From Mariprofundus aestuarium (GTDB taxonomy: Bacteria > Pseudomonadota > Zetaproteobacteria > Mariprofundales > Mariprofundaceae): a DNA stretch of 64,000 nt. Below, piece after piece: positions 22,553 through 57,529 of this stretch. The notes below the pieces were generated by a model that did not search any database, was not told the DNA's origin, and was given only the letters and a program-made list of their open reading frames with translations. A program made the position numbers and the translations under genes. The DNA lies in assembly GCF_002795805.1 (NCBI RefSeq), contig NZ_CP018799.1:861001-925000 (forward strand). Reading direction: 5' to 3'. Within the stretch, counting starts at the first letter, position 1. Each line of letters starts with the position of its first letter.

Positions 22553-23851
22553 CTATTGGTTTCTTCTCAGGAAAGAGATCAGGTTATCCAGATCGGCCCC
22601 TGTAATACCCTTGAATTTCATCTTGGTGCGAGCATCCGGTTTTCCTGAAACCTGCTTGACTGCATCCGATGTATTCTGGCTAAGCCAAGTATTCAGGTTG
22701 GCTTTATCCCATTTCCAGTTGCCGGAGCTCAAGGTGTCGCTGTATTTGAATCCATCCATGGTGCCAGCCTTGCGATTAAACACGCCTTTTAGGCCCGGTC
22801 CGAATTTCTTATCAGTCGAAGTAACGTTGTGGCAGGTGGCGCACTTCTTCATGGCCACCGCTTTGCCTGCAGCAGGGTCACCACGGGCAATCACTGTGAC
22901 TTTTCTCAGTTTCGTATTCGCCGCATTACCGGCGGCATCTGAAACATCATATGTCAGGGTATAGGTTCCGGGCTCGGAAGTATTGACTGAACCCGCCTTT
23001 TTGATGCTTGTTGAGATGTTGCCATCAGTCCCATCCATTGCCGTGGCTCCTGCATCAACGTAACGCATATCCTCGGTCACGGATGCTGACGCGGCGCCAT
23101 TGAGCGTAATGACGGGAGGAGTTGTGTCGACACCACGAATAACTGTCACGAACCGGGAGACGCTTTTAGCCCTGTTTCCGGCTTTGTCACTGACACTATA
23201 GGTGATCATGTAGGTGGCAGGACGTGATGTGTTAACCTCACCTTTGATGCTAATGCGACGCGTAAGGTTGCCATCGACCATGTCCCACGCCGTAGCTCCA
23301 GGGTCTGAATACTCCTCCCCCTCATTGATGGAGACGGACGCACTACCTTTGAGTTTAATCACAGGAGCCCTGGTATCGGCCTTGGTGACAGGCTTGGGAG
23401 CGGGTTCTGGTTCAGCTACGGGCTCAGAAACGGGTTCGGCTACTGTCTCGGTGACGGGCTCTGTCACAGGTGTTGGCGCAGGTTCGACAGCAGGCTGTGA
23501 TGCCGGTGCAGCTGCAGGCTCAGAAACGGCTTCAACCACCCTCACAAACCTGAAAACGGCTGCTGCTGCATTACCTGCAGCATCACTGACATTATAGGCC
23601 ACGGCATAGGTGCCGGGCTTGGCACTATCCAACGTGGTTACTGTGCGAATCTGGGACGAGATATCGCCATCCACATCATCAACTGCCTGGGCACCAGCCT
23701 CAACATAGTTACCACCAACCTGGATCGTGACGGTGTCAGCGCCGATAAGCTTGATAACGGGTGGTGTCGTGTCCGGTTTTGCAGCGATGCCGCTGGTTGG
23801 CGCAGCAAACATCAATAAAGCAGATACGACTGTAACAAATACTTTTCCCAT
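22553..23851 (-). CDS. Exported protein: three DUF5011 Ig-like repeats fused to a class I cytochrome c
   Basis: The 432-residue exported protein has a signal peptide (1-24) and three DUF5011/HYR-like Ig modules. The modules cover about 28-107, 160-238 and 243-321; each begins with a PPVIKL/APVIKL strand and holds YNVSDAAGNAA-like motifs. Modules 1 and 2 are separated by a ~50-residue Pro/Glu/Val/Thr linker. The C-terminal ~105 residues are a cytochrome c: CATCH at 337-341, GPGLKGVFNRKAG, and a likely axial Met411 (RTKMKFKGI). ATG 23851 has GGGGGA upstream; earlier ATGs lack one. A consensus-like promoter precedes it. Surface or periplasmic electron transfer is a reasonable guess. Confidence 0.88.
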   Translation of the reverse strand: MGKVFVTVVSALLMFAAPTSGIAAKPDTTPPVIKLIGADTVTIQVGGNYVEAGAQAVDDVDGDISSQIRTVTTLDSAKPGTYAVAYNVSDAAGNAAAAVFRFVRVVEAVSEPAAAPASQPAVEPAPTPVTEPVTETVAEPVSEPVAEPEPAPKPVTKADTRAPVIKLKGSASVSINEGEEYSDPGATAWDMVDGNLTRRISIKGEVNTSRPATYMITYSVSDKAGNRAKSVSRFVTVIRGVDTTPPVITLNGAASASVTEDMRYVDAGATAMDGTDGNISTSIKKAGSVNTSEPGTYTLTYDVSDAAGNAANTKLRKVTVIARGDPAAGKAVAMKKCATCHNVTSTDKKFGPGLKGVFNRKAGTMDGFKYSDTLSSGNWKWDKANLNTWLSQNTSDAVKQVSGKPDARTKMKFKGITGADLDNLISFLRRNQ

Positions 23852-23878
23852 TAGCTTTCCCCCTTTTTCCATCATCTA

Positions 23879-23906
23879 TTTATAGATAATACTGAAAAAA
23901 TGTCAA
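23879..23906 (-). promoter_or_regulatory. Sigma-70 promoter of the Ig-cytochrome c gene
   Basis: A perfect TTGACA (-35, 23906-23901) and TATAAA (-10, 23884-23879) are separated by 16 bp on the minus strand. They lie about 28 bp upstream of the chosen start, which gives a short leader. Confidence 0.6.
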
Positions 23907-23959: not shown

Positions 23960-25186
23960 CTAACCCTTGGTGACCTGGTTGCGCCCGTTATGTTTGGATT
24001 GGTAGAGCGCTTCATCGGCAGCCTTGAATGTTGAGGCGTGATCCGTCCCCGGCTCATGTTCGGCAATACCGAAGCTGGCGGTAATGTCGATGTTTCCAAC
24101 ACTAGTTTTAAAGGATTTCATCTCAATGGAGTGGCGCAGGATTTCGGCTATGCGGAAGCTGTCTTCCATTCCAGTGTCGGGGAAGACGATACAGAACTCT
24201 TCACCTCCAATCCTTGCAGTGAGATCACTACTTCGGGCGCACACTCCAAGCAATTGCGAGATCTGTGTAAGTACTTCATCGCCGACATCGTGGCCGTGGG
24301 TGTCGTTGATTTTTTTGAAATGATCAATATCAATGACTAGGAAGCTGAATCTGGATTGCCCAAGTGATTTCAGATATTCAGCCAGAGCTCTGCGGTTGGC
24401 CATGCCTGTTAAGGGGTCGTTTCGGGCTTCGGATTCAGCCTGCTCAAGCTGTCTGGATAGTGCGGATAGTTTTTCAACCTGACCCTGAATGGTATTTTGT
24501 AATTTTGTACTGGCACTGCTCAGCTTATTACCTGCTGTCAGGATACCTTCACGCGCCTTTTGCAGCATCTCTTTTGCCTGATCAACATCATCGGGCAGTT
24601 CCTGCTCCAGCAGTGTTCTTGCCTGCTTTAACTCGGGAGATTCCTCTCCCGCCTCTGCGAGAATATCGGAAATCGCATTGATTGAAGGGGTGAAGGCATC
24701 GACAAGTTTTTGCAGTTCTCTCCGCAAGCCTGCATTGCTCTTCAGGTGTTTCTGAAGCAGTTGTTGAAGGTGGCGTGCACATTTTTGCAGGGAGTCGCCT
24801 CTTTGCGCTTTGCTGCCAATCATTTCACAGCTGCTGTCGAGCAGAGCATGGGTGGTTGGGATCTCCTGCTGGGCCTGCATAATCAGCTGCCGCCTCTGTT
24901 GTACATGCGTCTCCACGGCTACTCTGGCATCCGCTGAAATAGTGCCGCTGCTGGTGAGGCGAAGCAGAGGGGCGTGCTCAGTATCCAGCATTTTTGCAAA
25001 TTGTTGGCTGATCCAGATGTAGGTGTCGTGAGGGATGCCGGGTGCCTGCCTGATCTGCTCCAAGGTAACAATCATACGACTTGTTGTAGAGCGAAGAGTT
25101 ACATCATCAGGCATTGCGGCAAGCAGTGCTGGACGCACCGTGTCCATGTCGTCCAGCAGCTGGTTTAATAGTTCAATCTGGCTCAC
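23960..25186 (-). CDS. Diguanylate cyclase (GGDEF) with helical N-terminal domain
   Basis: The 408-residue soluble protein is expected to make c-di-GMP. The N-terminal ~235 residues are helical, with no recognised sensor domain, ending in a coiled coil (LQNTIQGQVEKLSALSRQLE). The C-terminal ~160 residues are a GGDEF domain starting DPLTGMANRRAL. The active site reads GGEEF, and an RxxD product-inhibition site (RSSD) lies five residues before it. The start is GTG at 25186 with only a weak AGAAG. It overlaps the stop of a 30-codon ORF by the four bases GTGA, so translation may be coupled. Confidence 0.9.
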   Translation of the reverse strand: MSQIELLNQLLDDMDTVRPALLAAMPDDVTLRSTTSRMIVTLEQIRQAPGIPHDTYIWISQQFAKMLDTEHAPLLRLTSSGTISADARVAVETHVQQRRQLIMQAQQEIPTTHALLDSSCEMIGSKAQRGDSLQKCARHLQQLLQKHLKSNAGLRRELQKLVDAFTPSINAISDILAEAGEESPELKQARTLLEQELPDDVDQAKEMLQKAREGILTAGNKLSSASTKLQNTIQGQVEKLSALSRQLEQAESEARNDPLTGMANRRALAEYLKSLGQSRFSFLVIDIDHFKKINDTHGHDVGDEVLTQISQLLGVCARSSDLTARIGGEEFCIVFPDTGMEDSFRIAEILRHSIEMKSFKTSVGNIDITASFGIAEHEPGTDHASTFKAADEALYQSKHNGRNQVTKG

Positions 25187-27046: not shown

Positions 27047-28237
27047 TTAGAATTTGGATGTTAGTGAAATATCCAGTCCGGGTACGGGCCTGTTTCTTTG
27101 TGCGCTCATTAACAGTTGCATGTAGAGAGCGGCATCTACAGCAATAGATTCATTTTCCCAGCCAATGCCTAACGAAGGGGCAACCGGAAATATAGCTTTT
27201 TTGCTGAGGTCAGAGACGTTACCCATCTTTATTTTTAGAGGGGCCAGCAAGCCAAATCGATATTGCAGTGAGTCTCCGATATACTCGAAACCGGCACGGG
27301 CTATCTGCATGTTCATTTTATAATTTCCGTAGTTGCCAAACATCATTTGGTAATCAAATGAAAAAATCATATCGGGGCTGTAGCGCCACTGTGTGCCAAT
27401 CGTCAGATCTCTGGGGAATGATGTTTGCAACACCTTGTTCTGCACGGTTCCATTTTGATAAACGGTCTTGATCGCAACATCCAGTTTTGTGTTTATATCA
27501 TTCAGGTTGAAGGCAAAGGTAAGGTCATCACTGTAGAAATACTTTCCACCCACGTGAAATGCATATGTGGACGCCTTTGTTGTGCTGATCTTATATTGGC
27601 CCGGATTATCTGCAGTTACGCCGCAAAAAAAGGTTTTGCAATCAATTCGGGAAACAGCAACACCAAAGCTCCAGTCTGCATCTTCTTCAGGCATAACTGC
27701 CCAGGTAAGGCGGTAATCTTTGGTTTTTGATTCAATCGTGCCGTTAAAGTCACCGGGTAAATCAGGAAGCGCAAAACGAAGGAATACGCTCTCTAAATCA
27801 TTTGCTGTATATGCCCCTGTAGCTTTCACGTGCAGCCGGGTTATCCAGGATAGTGCAATAGAGGATTTAAGCCCTGCAAACCTTAACCATTCGCCTGTAA
27901 GTGCTACTCCAGCAAAGTTTACGGGTATCATTTTTGCATTGAGTTGTCCTGAAATAGAAGCCTGATTTTCTGTCAGTTCAGCAAGCCCAGCCGGGTTCCA
28001 GTAAACAGAGTATATATCGTTTACTCCAGCGCTTACTGCGCCACTTAATGCCTTAGATTTAGAGCCGACACCAAGTAAAAGGTCACTTCCTTCAACATCA
28101 AAGGTTTGTGCAGCCATTGCAGTGCTGGAAGATAACAGTATTAGAAGAGCCAGAATTAGCTGATATGCCTGTTCCGAGTATTTTAAACATGTTCGGTTAC
28201 GGTAGTGTTTTTTCGATGTTTTGGACAAGCTAAACAT
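27047..28237 (-). CDS. FadL/OMPP1-like outer-membrane beta-barrel protein
   Basis: The 396-residue exported protein has a long signal peptide that probably ends at TAMA (about residue 43). The mature region begins with a glycine-rich stretch (LLLGVGSKSKALSGAVSAGVNDIYSVYWNPAGLAEL). The NPAGLA motif is typical of FadL/OMPP1 and PorV-like barrels. The rest is alternating amphipathic strands, ending LDISLTSKF with the C-terminal Phe typical of outer-membrane barrels. Transport of hydrophobic compounds is the family role, but the substrate is unknown. The start has GGGAG upstream. The last codons are shared with no other gene. Confidence 0.75.
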   Translation of the reverse strand: MFSLSKTSKKHYRNRTCLKYSEQAYQLILALLILLSSSTAMAAQTFDVEGSDLLLGVGSKSKALSGAVSAGVNDIYSVYWNPAGLAELTENQASISGQLNAKMIPVNFAGVALTGEWLRFAGLKSSIALSWITRLHVKATGAYTANDLESVFLRFALPDLPGDFNGTIESKTKDYRLTWAVMPEEDADWSFGVAVSRIDCKTFFCGVTADNPGQYKISTTKASTYAFHVGGKYFYSDDLTFAFNLNDINTKLDVAIKTVYQNGTVQNKVLQTSFPRDLTIGTQWRYSPDMIFSFDYQMMFGNYGNYKMNMQIARAGFEYIGDSLQYRFGLLAPLKIKMGNVSDLSKKAIFPVAPSLGIGWENESIAVDAALYMQLLMSAQRNRPVPGLDISLTSKF

Positions 28238-54898: not shown

Positions 54899-57529
54899 AT
54901 GATTTTCAGAATTAAACCATTCTCTTTACAAAAAAATGGATTAAGAGCCGTTGTGCTGATGCCACTGGCAGCTCTGCTGATCTTCTCAGCCTGTGCGAAG
55001 CAGGAACCGCCTGCCAAGCCGATGCTTCCTGTACCGGAAGTTGCGGCAAGGGATCTTAAACTGATCGAGTCCCTTCCCGAAAATAAACTTACATTTAACG
55101 ATATCAGGCCAGTACTGGAGAAACGCTGCATCGTCTGTCACGGCTGTTACGACGCCCCATGCCAGCTCAAGCTTACCTCATTCGAAGGTATAGAGCGGGG
55201 TGCGAATAAACTGAAGGTGTATAACAAGAAGCGCTTTACCCTTCAGAAGCCGACACGCCTCTTTATTGATGCCAACTCAAAAGATGAGTGGCGCGAAAAG
55301 CAGTTTTTCAGTGTGCTCAATGAAAGCGGAGGAGACCCCAGAGATAACCTCAAAAACTCGCTGATTTACCAGATGCTGAATCTGAAACGGGAGAACCCTT
55401 TTCCAGAGAGCGGCAAACTCCCTCAGGATTATGAGAACCCCAAGGATGGCAAGGATCCTAGGAACCTAGATGTTAGTCTGGATCGTGCGCAGCAGTGCAC
55501 CAGACTTGAAGCTTTCGGTGACTTTTCCAAGGATCATAAGAGCTGGGGTATGCCTTTCGCGGTTCCGAACCTTTCCGAAAATGAGTACAGGCAGCTGGTG
55601 CAGTGGCTGGCTCAGGGGGCGAAGTTTTCTGAGAGGGAAAAGGTGTCTTCAGCAGCAGTCCAGATTGAGGAATGGGAAGGTTTTTTTAACGGCTCTGGAG
55701 TTGAAAAGAGAGGGGATATTCTCAAAAGAAAGCTTGTCAGCCGCTATATCTATGAACATCTGGTGCTTGGACACCTCCATTTCAAAGGAGCGCCGGAGCG
55801 GGAGTTTTTCCGGCTGGTACGATCCACCTCTAAACCTGGAGAGCCGATAGAAGAAATTCCATCGGTTCGTCCTTACGACCAACCAATGGTCAACAATGTT
55901 AAAGTCGACACGTTCTATTATCGCCTTCGCCCTTACAGGGCGAGTATCGTGGATAAGAGTCATATTGTTTATGAGCTTTCAGATGCGCGCATGAAGAGGT
56001 ACAAAGAACTTTTCCTGGGTGCTGATTATAAAGTGACAGAACTACCAGCCTATAATTCTGCCGAATCTTTGGATAAGTTTAAGAACTTTGTCATCAGGAT
56101 GAAAAAGCTGTTCGGGTTTTATGAAAATCACATGATTACCCCTTTTAAGGTGTTTGAAAAAATCCCTGCCAGATCGCGCTATCAGTTTCTGCTCGATGAT
56201 GCCCGCTTCTTTATCAACGGTTTTATCAAGGGGCCGGTATGCCGCGGGCTGGGTGCACTCAGTTCCATTGAGGACCACTTCTGGGTCTTTTTCCTTAAAC
56301 CTGAAAATCCTCCTGACTATAAACAACATGGCCTGGATGAGGCCTTTATCGCCAGTAATGATACGTTATTGCACCTGCCGACTGAACTGGGGAATACCCA
56401 CCGTCTGTTTACCGCCTGGCTAAAGTACTGGCCGAAGGAGCAGGCGTATATGCAGGCCAAACTGGACTACTACACACCGAATGAAAACAGGGCGACACCT
56501 GAGTTTCCCCTTCCTGTTAAGAGAGCCTTGGATGAGTTTGTCTGGGATGGCATCAATCCGACTGGTGCCACCATAAACAGGAATTCCGCGTTGACCGTAT
56601 TCCGCCATCTCGACAGTGCTTCGGTTCATTATGGTCTGATAGGCGATGAGCCGGAAACTGCATGGATGATTGATTATCCGGTGTTTGAGCGACTGCACTA
56701 CCTGCTGGTGGCTGGATACAACACCTTCGGCACACTCGGTCATCAGGCGTCGGCACGACTTTACATGGACTTTCTGCGTATGGAGGGCGAGGACAATTTC
56801 CTTTTCTTCCTGCCAGTGGATAAGCGCAAGGAGCTCTATGAGTCGTGGCACAATGTGGATCGCAGCAGCACTCGTAAGATCAGCAGGAAAACCAGTGCAT
56901 GGCTGGATGTGGAGTCGGTCTCAGGATATAAGACGAAGTCTGAGCAGCATGAGCTTTATGCGCTGCTCAGGGAGCATGTCGTATTCAGATCTCCGGATTC
57001 AGAAGACCTGAATCGCTGTAACAAGGAGGAGTGTTTCTCTTCGCCCAGTGACCGGGCAATGCAGAAGCTGGCCGATATGAAAGGAAAGTATTCGAAAGAG
57101 GGGAGGGATCTTTATCCTCTGCGTTATTTCCCGGCACTCTCTTATGTTCGAATCGGTGACGAATCCTATACGGTTATCTACAACAAATCGTACAAGTTGT
57201 ACGAAAAAGACTCCTTCACCAAGGAGGTGAATGATCGTACGGAGAGCGACATGAGTGGTGATACTCTCACCGTGACAAGAGGTCTGGCTGGTGCCTATCC
57301 CAACTTCTTCTTCAATGTCCCGCCAGAGAGGCTGGATGAATTCATCGCTGCTTGTGAGAGCCTTCAGTATAAGGAAGAGGGTTTTGAGGAGCTGGTAAAT
57401 GACTACGGAATCAGGCGCACCAATCCGAAATTCTGGGAAATGGCAGATTGGTTTAAGCAACAGCACGAAACGGCACAGCCTGTAGAGTCAGGTATTCTGG
57501 ATCTGAGCCGGTACGTGGATCCTGCTTAA
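54899..57529 (+). CDS. cti: Fatty acid cis/trans isomerase
   Basis: Cti converts cis- to trans-unsaturated fatty acids in membrane phospholipids from the periplasm, stiffening the membrane under solvent or heat stress. The 876-residue protein has an N-terminal signal with a possible lipobox (IFSAC, Cys32) and the characteristic haem-c motif CIVCH at 77-81, required for activity in Pseudomonas Cti. Further family segments include KSWGMPFAVPNLSENEYRQLVQWLAQGA and LFTAWLKYWPKEQAYMQAK. The family is usually about 750-770 residues, so this one is somewhat long. The start follows GGAGGGCGGGGGTT. Confidence 0.93.
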   Translation: MIFRIKPFSLQKNGLRAVVLMPLAALLIFSACAKQEPPAKPMLPVPEVAARDLKLIESLPENKLTFNDIRPVLEKRCIVCHGCYDAPCQLKLTSFEGIERGANKLKVYNKKRFTLQKPTRLFIDANSKDEWREKQFFSVLNESGGDPRDNLKNSLIYQMLNLKRENPFPESGKLPQDYENPKDGKDPRNLDVSLDRAQQCTRLEAFGDFSKDHKSWGMPFAVPNLSENEYRQLVQWLAQGAKFSEREKVSSAAVQIEEWEGFFNGSGVEKRGDILKRKLVSRYIYEHLVLGHLHFKGAPEREFFRLVRSTSKPGEPIEEIPSVRPYDQPMVNNVKVDTFYYRLRPYRASIVDKSHIVYELSDARMKRYKELFLGADYKVTELPAYNSAESLDKFKNFVIRMKKLFGFYENHMITPFKVFEKIPARSRYQFLLDDARFFINGFIKGPVCRGLGALSSIEDHFWVFFLKPENPPDYKQHGLDEAFIASNDTLLHLPTELGNTHRLFTAWLKYWPKEQAYMQAKLDYYTPNENRATPEFPLPVKRALDEFVWDGINPTGATINRNSALTVFRHLDSASVHYGLIGDEPETAWMIDYPVFERLHYLLVAGYNTFGTLGHQASARLYMDFLRMEGEDNFLFFLPVDKRKELYESWHNVDRSSTRKISRKTSAWLDVESVSGYKTKSEQHELYALLREHVVFRSPDSEDLNRCNKEECFSSPSDRAMQKLADMKGKYSKEGRDLYPLRYFPALSYVRIGDESYTVIYNKSYKLYEKDSFTKEVNDRTESDMSGDTLTVTRGLAGAYPNFFFNVPPERLDEFIAACESLQYKEEGFEELVNDYGIRRTNPKFWEMADWFKQQHETAQPVESGILDLSRYVDPA

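Follow-up and report, generated by a model that had tools for sequence, protein, structure and literature searches.

A gene of Mariprofundus aestuarium CP-5 was found to join three bacterial Ig-like domains to a C-terminal mono-haem cytochrome c. Judged from its sequence, the product is almost certainly a haem electron carrier, and a periplasmic location is likely. The reading that we favour, with middling confidence, is that of a Sec-exported periplasmic carrier, which would hold its single haem on a long leash and pass electrons from Cyc2 to a terminal oxidase.

Domain architecture of the Ig-cytochrome c

The protein of 432 aa is encoded on the minus strand of the window (the whole 64-kb stretch of DNA that was analysed), and its frame, strand and coordinates agree with the original prediction. 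The features of the gene, all on the minus strand, are as follows.

22553..23851, minus: Ig-cytochrome c gene, 432 aa, ATG start
23879..23906, minus: sigma-70-like promoter TTGACA-N16-TATAAA, sole match in the window
23859..23865, minus: Shine-Dalgarno-like AAGGGGG, 7 bases 5' of the ATG, read from the sequence
23783..23851, minus: putative Sec-type signal peptide, about residues 1-23, without lipobox, by eye from the sequence
23531..23773, minus: Ig1, residues 27-107, the most conserved module (Pfam, conservation, model)
23378..23530, minus: leash, residues 108-158, rich in Pro/Ala/Glu/Val and mostly predicted to be disordered
23138..23377, minus: Ig2, residues 159-238 (Pfam, model)
22889..23128, minus: Ig3, residues 242-321 (Pfam, model)
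22559..22885, minus: class I cytochrome c domain, residues 323-431 (Pfam, 2c2c alignment)
22829..22843, minus: haem c attachment motif CATCH, residues 337-341 (sequence)
22619..22621, minus: Met411, likely distal haem ligand (alignment, orthologue conservation)

The ATG at 23851 was preferred as the start over the in-frame upstream ATG at 23875, because AAGGGGG stands seven bases before it. From the N-terminus, the protein consists of the signal peptide, Ig1, a 51-residue Pro/Ala/Glu linker, Ig2, Ig3 and the mono-haem cytochrome c. Ig modules fused to a cytochrome c had been predicted, and profile searches bore this out: PF16403 (Bact_surface_Ig-like, which we take to be the former DUF5011) scored 202.9 bits against a curated cut-off of 27 and covered three stretches of the protein, and PF00034 (Cytochrom_C) scored 36.6 bits against a cut-off of 21.3 over residues 327-429. 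The only two Cys of the protein are those of CATCH, giving one CXXCH. Met411 lines up with the KM-motif Met of cytochrome c2 (PDB 2c2c), and both CXXCH and Met411 are invariant across five orthologues, which supports the haem ligands that had been proposed. No tandem repeats were scored in the leash-coding DNA of the window.

The structural model of the window protein (mean pLDDT 72.3) contained three confident beta domains. The leash was mostly below pLDDT 50, and the cytochrome core was partly of low confidence, as expected without haem. The best fold matches of the model included surface or secreted proteins, for example internalin K and a chitinase.

The consensus-like promoter that had been reported upstream of the gene was confirmed as a sequence pattern. 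At no more than one mismatch, the 64-kb window contains TTGACA-N16-TATAAA nowhere but at 23906-23879, with 0.24 matches expected by chance and at least one match in 18 of 100 shuffles. A stricter consensus scan did not list this site, since the second hexamer lacks a final T.

Conservation of the modules and variation of the leash

The five intact copies share 44-79% identity and keep all three Ig domains in the same order. The gap between Ig2 and Ig3 is 3 residues in every copy and that between Ig3 and the cytochrome is -1 to 1, so that only the spacing between Ig1 and Ig2 varies, with leashes of 51, 45, 68, 166 and 184 residues. A fixed molecular ruler is ruled out by this range of 45 to 184 residues among orthologues. 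The leashes also differ in composition, being rich in Pro/Ala/Glu, Glu/Ala/Lys/Pro or Ala/Glu/Lys. In one copy (L010) the leash DNA consists of two arrays of an 18-base repeat, of 14.6 and 13.9 copies; in the model of this copy (mean pLDDT 61.7) the leash forms a pair of helices, 93 and 62 residues long, at moderate to low confidence. A lipobox is present in two of the five copies (L009 and L010) and absent from the window copy, L007 and L008.

Mean pairwise identity was 69.3% for Ig1, 62.9% for the cytochrome, 55.5% for Ig2 and 55.0% for Ig3, a ranking that rests on five sequences. Across species, Ig1 domains were 69% identical to Ig domains at the same position versus 48-50% to those at different positions; for Ig2 and Ig3 the same-position values were 55 and 54%, a less clear positional signal. 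Because Ig1 is the best conserved, it is unlikely to be a passive spacer, and its conservation suggests a docking function beyond mere length. The protein uses a surface-protein module in a redox context, and the best conserved Ig is the one farthest along the chain from the haem.

Distribution and genomic neighbourhood

The intact gene was present in 5 of 78 genomes of the class, all from one genus (G000, which holds the window, G047, G049, G055 and G057). The nearest named copies are those of Mariprofundus micogutta ET2 and the Mariprofundus MAGs S139_64 and OFTM123. A sixth genome, G050, carries only the 3' part of the cytochrome domain, 59% identical to the window copy, and the Ig part was not seen on the contig bearing this fragment. 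The cytochrome part of this probable orthologue (L018 / L099) is interrupted by transposase-like DNA, presumably of the IS21 type.

A query spanning the Ig3-cytochrome junction, run against 398 genomes of the phylum, gave whole-junction matches in the same five genomes among the matches listed; the 11 listed from outside the class were frames of 113-168 aa. A pattern-limited contig scan, from which close records of the genome that holds the window may have been left out, gave 54 loci, of which 3 spanned both Ig and cytochrome. For the domain-architecture search that had been recommended, an Ig profile built on the window gene was run against the 191 haem-motif frames at the loci examined and hit only 17 of them, which represent five genes, all copies of the same gene. 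When PF16403 was counted in the 78 genomes, each of the five with an intact copy had 3 matches, all within the Ig-cytochrome gene, and elsewhere in the class the domain occurred in long adhesin-sized frames. Since all PF16403 matches in the five genomes fall in this gene, the module there does not appear to be part of a general adhesin set, and the same counts do not support a surface adhesin. A literature search, mostly of papers outside subscription, found no description of an Ig-cytochrome c fusion, and the terms "Ig-like" and "immunoglobulin" are absent from the main text of PMC5513912 and PMC7029218. By these sequence searches, the fusion appears to be confined to a few genomes and was found only in Mariprofundus. 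A candidate giant protein with a cytochrome in a relative was dropped, as its frame merely ran into a long run of N.

No operon partner common to all five intact copies was found in their flanks. The gene adjoins no recognised electron-transport gene and occupies at least three different locations among the five genomes. In the window, a GGDEF diguanylate cyclase gene (23960-25186) lies directly upstream on the same strand; in a CP-8-like genome (L056), pflB- and pflA-like genes, identified by eye, take its place.

Leashed cytochromes in Zetaproteobacteria

The Ig-cytochrome resembles a wider set. Many mono-haem cytochromes c of the class bear a lipobox and a long low-complexity leash, 39 of 117 distinct cytochrome domains by a sequence pattern of our own, a count that includes the dihaem L054 and the Ig copy L010 and misses at least six visible by eye (L009, L047, L052, L103, L105 and L106). 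Of the 23 genomes of the genus, 22 encode one or more intact mono-haem cytochromes c with some form of leash. These proteins (e.g. L028, L049 and L005) share with the Ig-cytochrome an N-terminal export signal, a long low-complexity leash and one C-terminal class I cytochrome c; unlike the Ig group, they carry a lipobox, no Ig and mostly an extra Cys pair in the cytochrome. We found no family name for leashed lipoprotein mono-haem cytochromes c of Zetaproteobacteria.

Several leashed types could be told apart. One group lies beside rpoC, as judged by eye, in five of seven such regions (G008, G039, G046, G048 and G066, not G056 or G061). In G008 (L059:6510-8734), the leashed cytochrome gene has rpoC on one side and is followed on the other by a Cyc2-like porin-cytochrome gene of the same strand, presumably cyc2 by its motif. 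A second type, with a DKAAA leash, adjoins a CorC-like gene (by eye) in G000, G047, G053 and G054, and the same locus in the M. micogutta-like G049 (L095) encodes a Pro/Ala leash, which in sequence terms is a leash swap. In the genome of the window, L005 / L063:6943-7845 encodes a lipoprotein whose DKAAA leash derives from a 15-base repeat of 20.6 copies and whose C-terminus is a mono-haem cytochrome c. A third type has a coiled-coil-like leash of about 200-260 residues.

We then placed 69 of the 117 cytochrome domains in a tree; rows with X or with a domain shorter than 85 residues were dropped, whereby the whole Acidobacteria group was lost. In this tree the Ig group falls into a single clade (97/89), whose position relative to the others is weakly supported. 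To account for the well-supported branches, the "leashed" label must change at least 4 times; it was assigned by distance to the frame start and includes L102, a stop-to-stop frame of putative lipoprotein status. Because of these changes, leashing was probably gained or lost several times. As a control we took 48 genomes from a different class of the phylum, where each of the 35 rows at E <1e-9, counted by eye, was a frame of 113-206 aa; the weaker rows included frames of 221-602 aa, many of them with two matches, as would be expected for dihaem proteins. Zetaproteobacteria appear to have repeatedly put mono-haem cytochromes c on lipoprotein leashes.

Respiratory chain context

The host, Mariprofundus aestuarium CP-5, is an obligate Fe(II) oxidiser, in keeping with the electron-exchanging organism that had been envisaged. 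CP-5 and CP-8 are described as lacking cyc1 and cbb3 (PMC5513912), and the periplasmic carrier of a cyc1-lacking lineage is stated to be another, unnamed one (PMC7029218). The candidate carrier named in PMC5513912 is a different, free cytochrome of 127 residues. Free small cytochromes c also occur in the same genome as the window.

We surveyed the 23 genomes of the genus for terminal oxidases. COX2 (aa3) was present in 7 (G000, G047, G049, G050, G053, G054 and G057), and FixO (cbb3) was missing from 4 (G000, G047, G057 and G066, the last 78% complete), three of which have the Ig-cytochrome. Four of the five genomes with an intact Ig-cytochrome have COX2; S139_64 (G055) has the Ig-cytochrome with no COX2 match, and G053 and G054 have COX2 and no Ig-cytochrome. 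The rpoC-side leashed type occurs in 12 of the 23 genomes and in none with the Ig-cytochrome (6/23 including the G050 fragment), a mutual exclusion with a Fisher P of 0.0046, or about 0.014 by hand without G050 (5/23), both values being made too small by shared descent. Descent likewise confounds the co-occurrence patterns of oxidases, rpoC-side type and Ig-cytochrome, and the association of the Ig-cytochrome with aa3 may be one clade's history.

Proposed function and alternatives

A periplasmic leashed carrier is favoured because of the Sec-exported reading, the intact haem site and the anatomy of the other leashed cytochromes. In this model, Sec export would deliver the mono-haem protein to the periplasm, where c-type haem is attached. 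Ig1, at the N-terminal (anchor) end, would dock or orient the protein, as its conservation suggests; the low-complexity leash would supply reach, and a compact Ig2-Ig3-cytochrome head would carry the haem. The carrier would then take electrons from Cyc2, the iron oxidase of the outer membrane, through the periplasm towards aa3 in the inner membrane, in a lineage whose published genomes lack Cyc1. We infer the location, the docking role and the partners Cyc2 and aa3. Against the model, no membrane anchor is visible by eye in the window copy, the gene has neither a recognised electron-transport neighbour nor a constant genomic position, and PMC5513912 puts forward the free 127-residue cytochrome instead.

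The main alternative, which we consider rather unlikely, is that the Ig arm takes the haem past the outer membrane to iron minerals or neighbouring cells, as the original prediction of a surface-extended carrier had it. The name of PF16403 refers to surface proteins, and long frames of the class contain the domain; internalin K and a chitinase are among the fold matches; a lipobox is found in two orthologues; and Geobacter PgcA, a lipocytochrome with repeat leashes, lies outside the cell (PMC5732950). The long leashes point the same way: if helical, one of 166-184 residues together with the three Ig domains may be longer than a usual periplasm is wide, which would fit a surface reading at least as well. 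However, by eye the window copy shows neither a lipobox nor a sorting signal or export partner, no outer-membrane anchor or export signal beyond the periplasm was seen in the protein, and its C-terminus is taken by the cytochrome. Moreover, the five intact-copy genomes contain no other PF16403 protein, and a single haem at the tip of an Ig rod cannot alone bridge to the cell. A surface location is thus not supported by the sequence. Of the original prediction, the architecture, the ligands, the promoter-like site and the iron-linked host held, and the surface location found no support.

Less probable still is a periplasmic sensor, scavenger or detoxifying haem protein, in which Ig1 would bind a specific partner and little flux would pass through the haem. 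The free small cytochromes c of the same genome could do the bulk transfer, and Ig1 is conserved above the haem domain. Yet all five copies retain the class I domain along with the two haem ligands, and ligation by Met and His is better suited to electron transfer than to ligand binding. A recent chance fusion between a cytochrome and an adhesin fragment, in which the Ig part serves no selected purpose, would agree with the few genomes of one genus, the differing gene locations and the interrupted G050 copy, but is very improbable, being already weakened by the conservation of three ordered Ig domains, Ig1 above all, at 44-79% identity.

The periplasmic carrier reading bears on how electrons pass from Cyc2 to the inner membrane in those Zetaproteobacteria that lack Cyc1, a question left open in PMC7029218 and PMC5513912. 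The Ig-cytochrome and the wider leashed set are named candidates with testable anatomy for this step. A broader scenario, conceivable but doubtful as a whole, is that Zetaproteobacteria crossed the periplasm from Cyc2 by leashed cytochromes in place of a single fixed carrier, with haem leashed several times and leashes lengthened or swapped through DNA repeats; in the aa3-bearing Mariprofundus, an Ig-armed version with a docking Ig1 would replace both Cyc1 and the rpoC-side leashed cytochrome.

Comparison with known systems

Rhodobacter cytochrome cy also has a long linker, of 69 residues before the cytochrome c domain (PMC7876108). In R. capsulatus, this 69-residue linker is needed for fast transfer to the reaction centre and about 45 residues suffice for the oxidase (PMC7876108), which shows that the partner served by a leashed haem is influenced by linker length. 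The 51-residue window leash is a linker of comparable kind, but it is flanked by Ig on both sides. Cytochrome cy has an uncleaved transmembrane-helix anchor at its N-terminus and no Ig, and transfers electrons from bc1 to an oxidase along one membrane; the N-terminus of the window protein reads by eye as a putative cleavable signal peptide.

Geobacter PgcA resembles the Ig-cytochrome set in being lipoprotein-type with repeat leashes, the kind of repeat differing from one species to another (PMC5732950). It differs from the window protein in having three haems in G. sulfurreducens and in acting extracellularly in Fe(III) reduction, and no Ig is mentioned in the cited part of PMC5732950. PgcA is marked by a lipid site and by PTX or PAX repeats between several haems, whereas the window protein has no lipobox and one haem. 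Cyc1 of Acidithiobacillus has two haems, in contrast to the one CXXCH found here. The lipid-modified azurin of Neisseria (Laz, H.8) is also a small redox carrier on an Ala/Pro/Glu-rich lipidated leash, but it is a copper protein and is not known to carry Ig. With PF16403 surface proteins, the window protein shares the Ig modules.

Other genes in the window

Two further genes were observed. Positions 27047-28237 encode a 396-residue outer-membrane-barrel-like protein with weak matches to the PorV and FadL families, and positions 54899-57529 encode a protein of 876 residues that has a lipobox-like N-terminus and contains CIVCH, a CXXCH motif.
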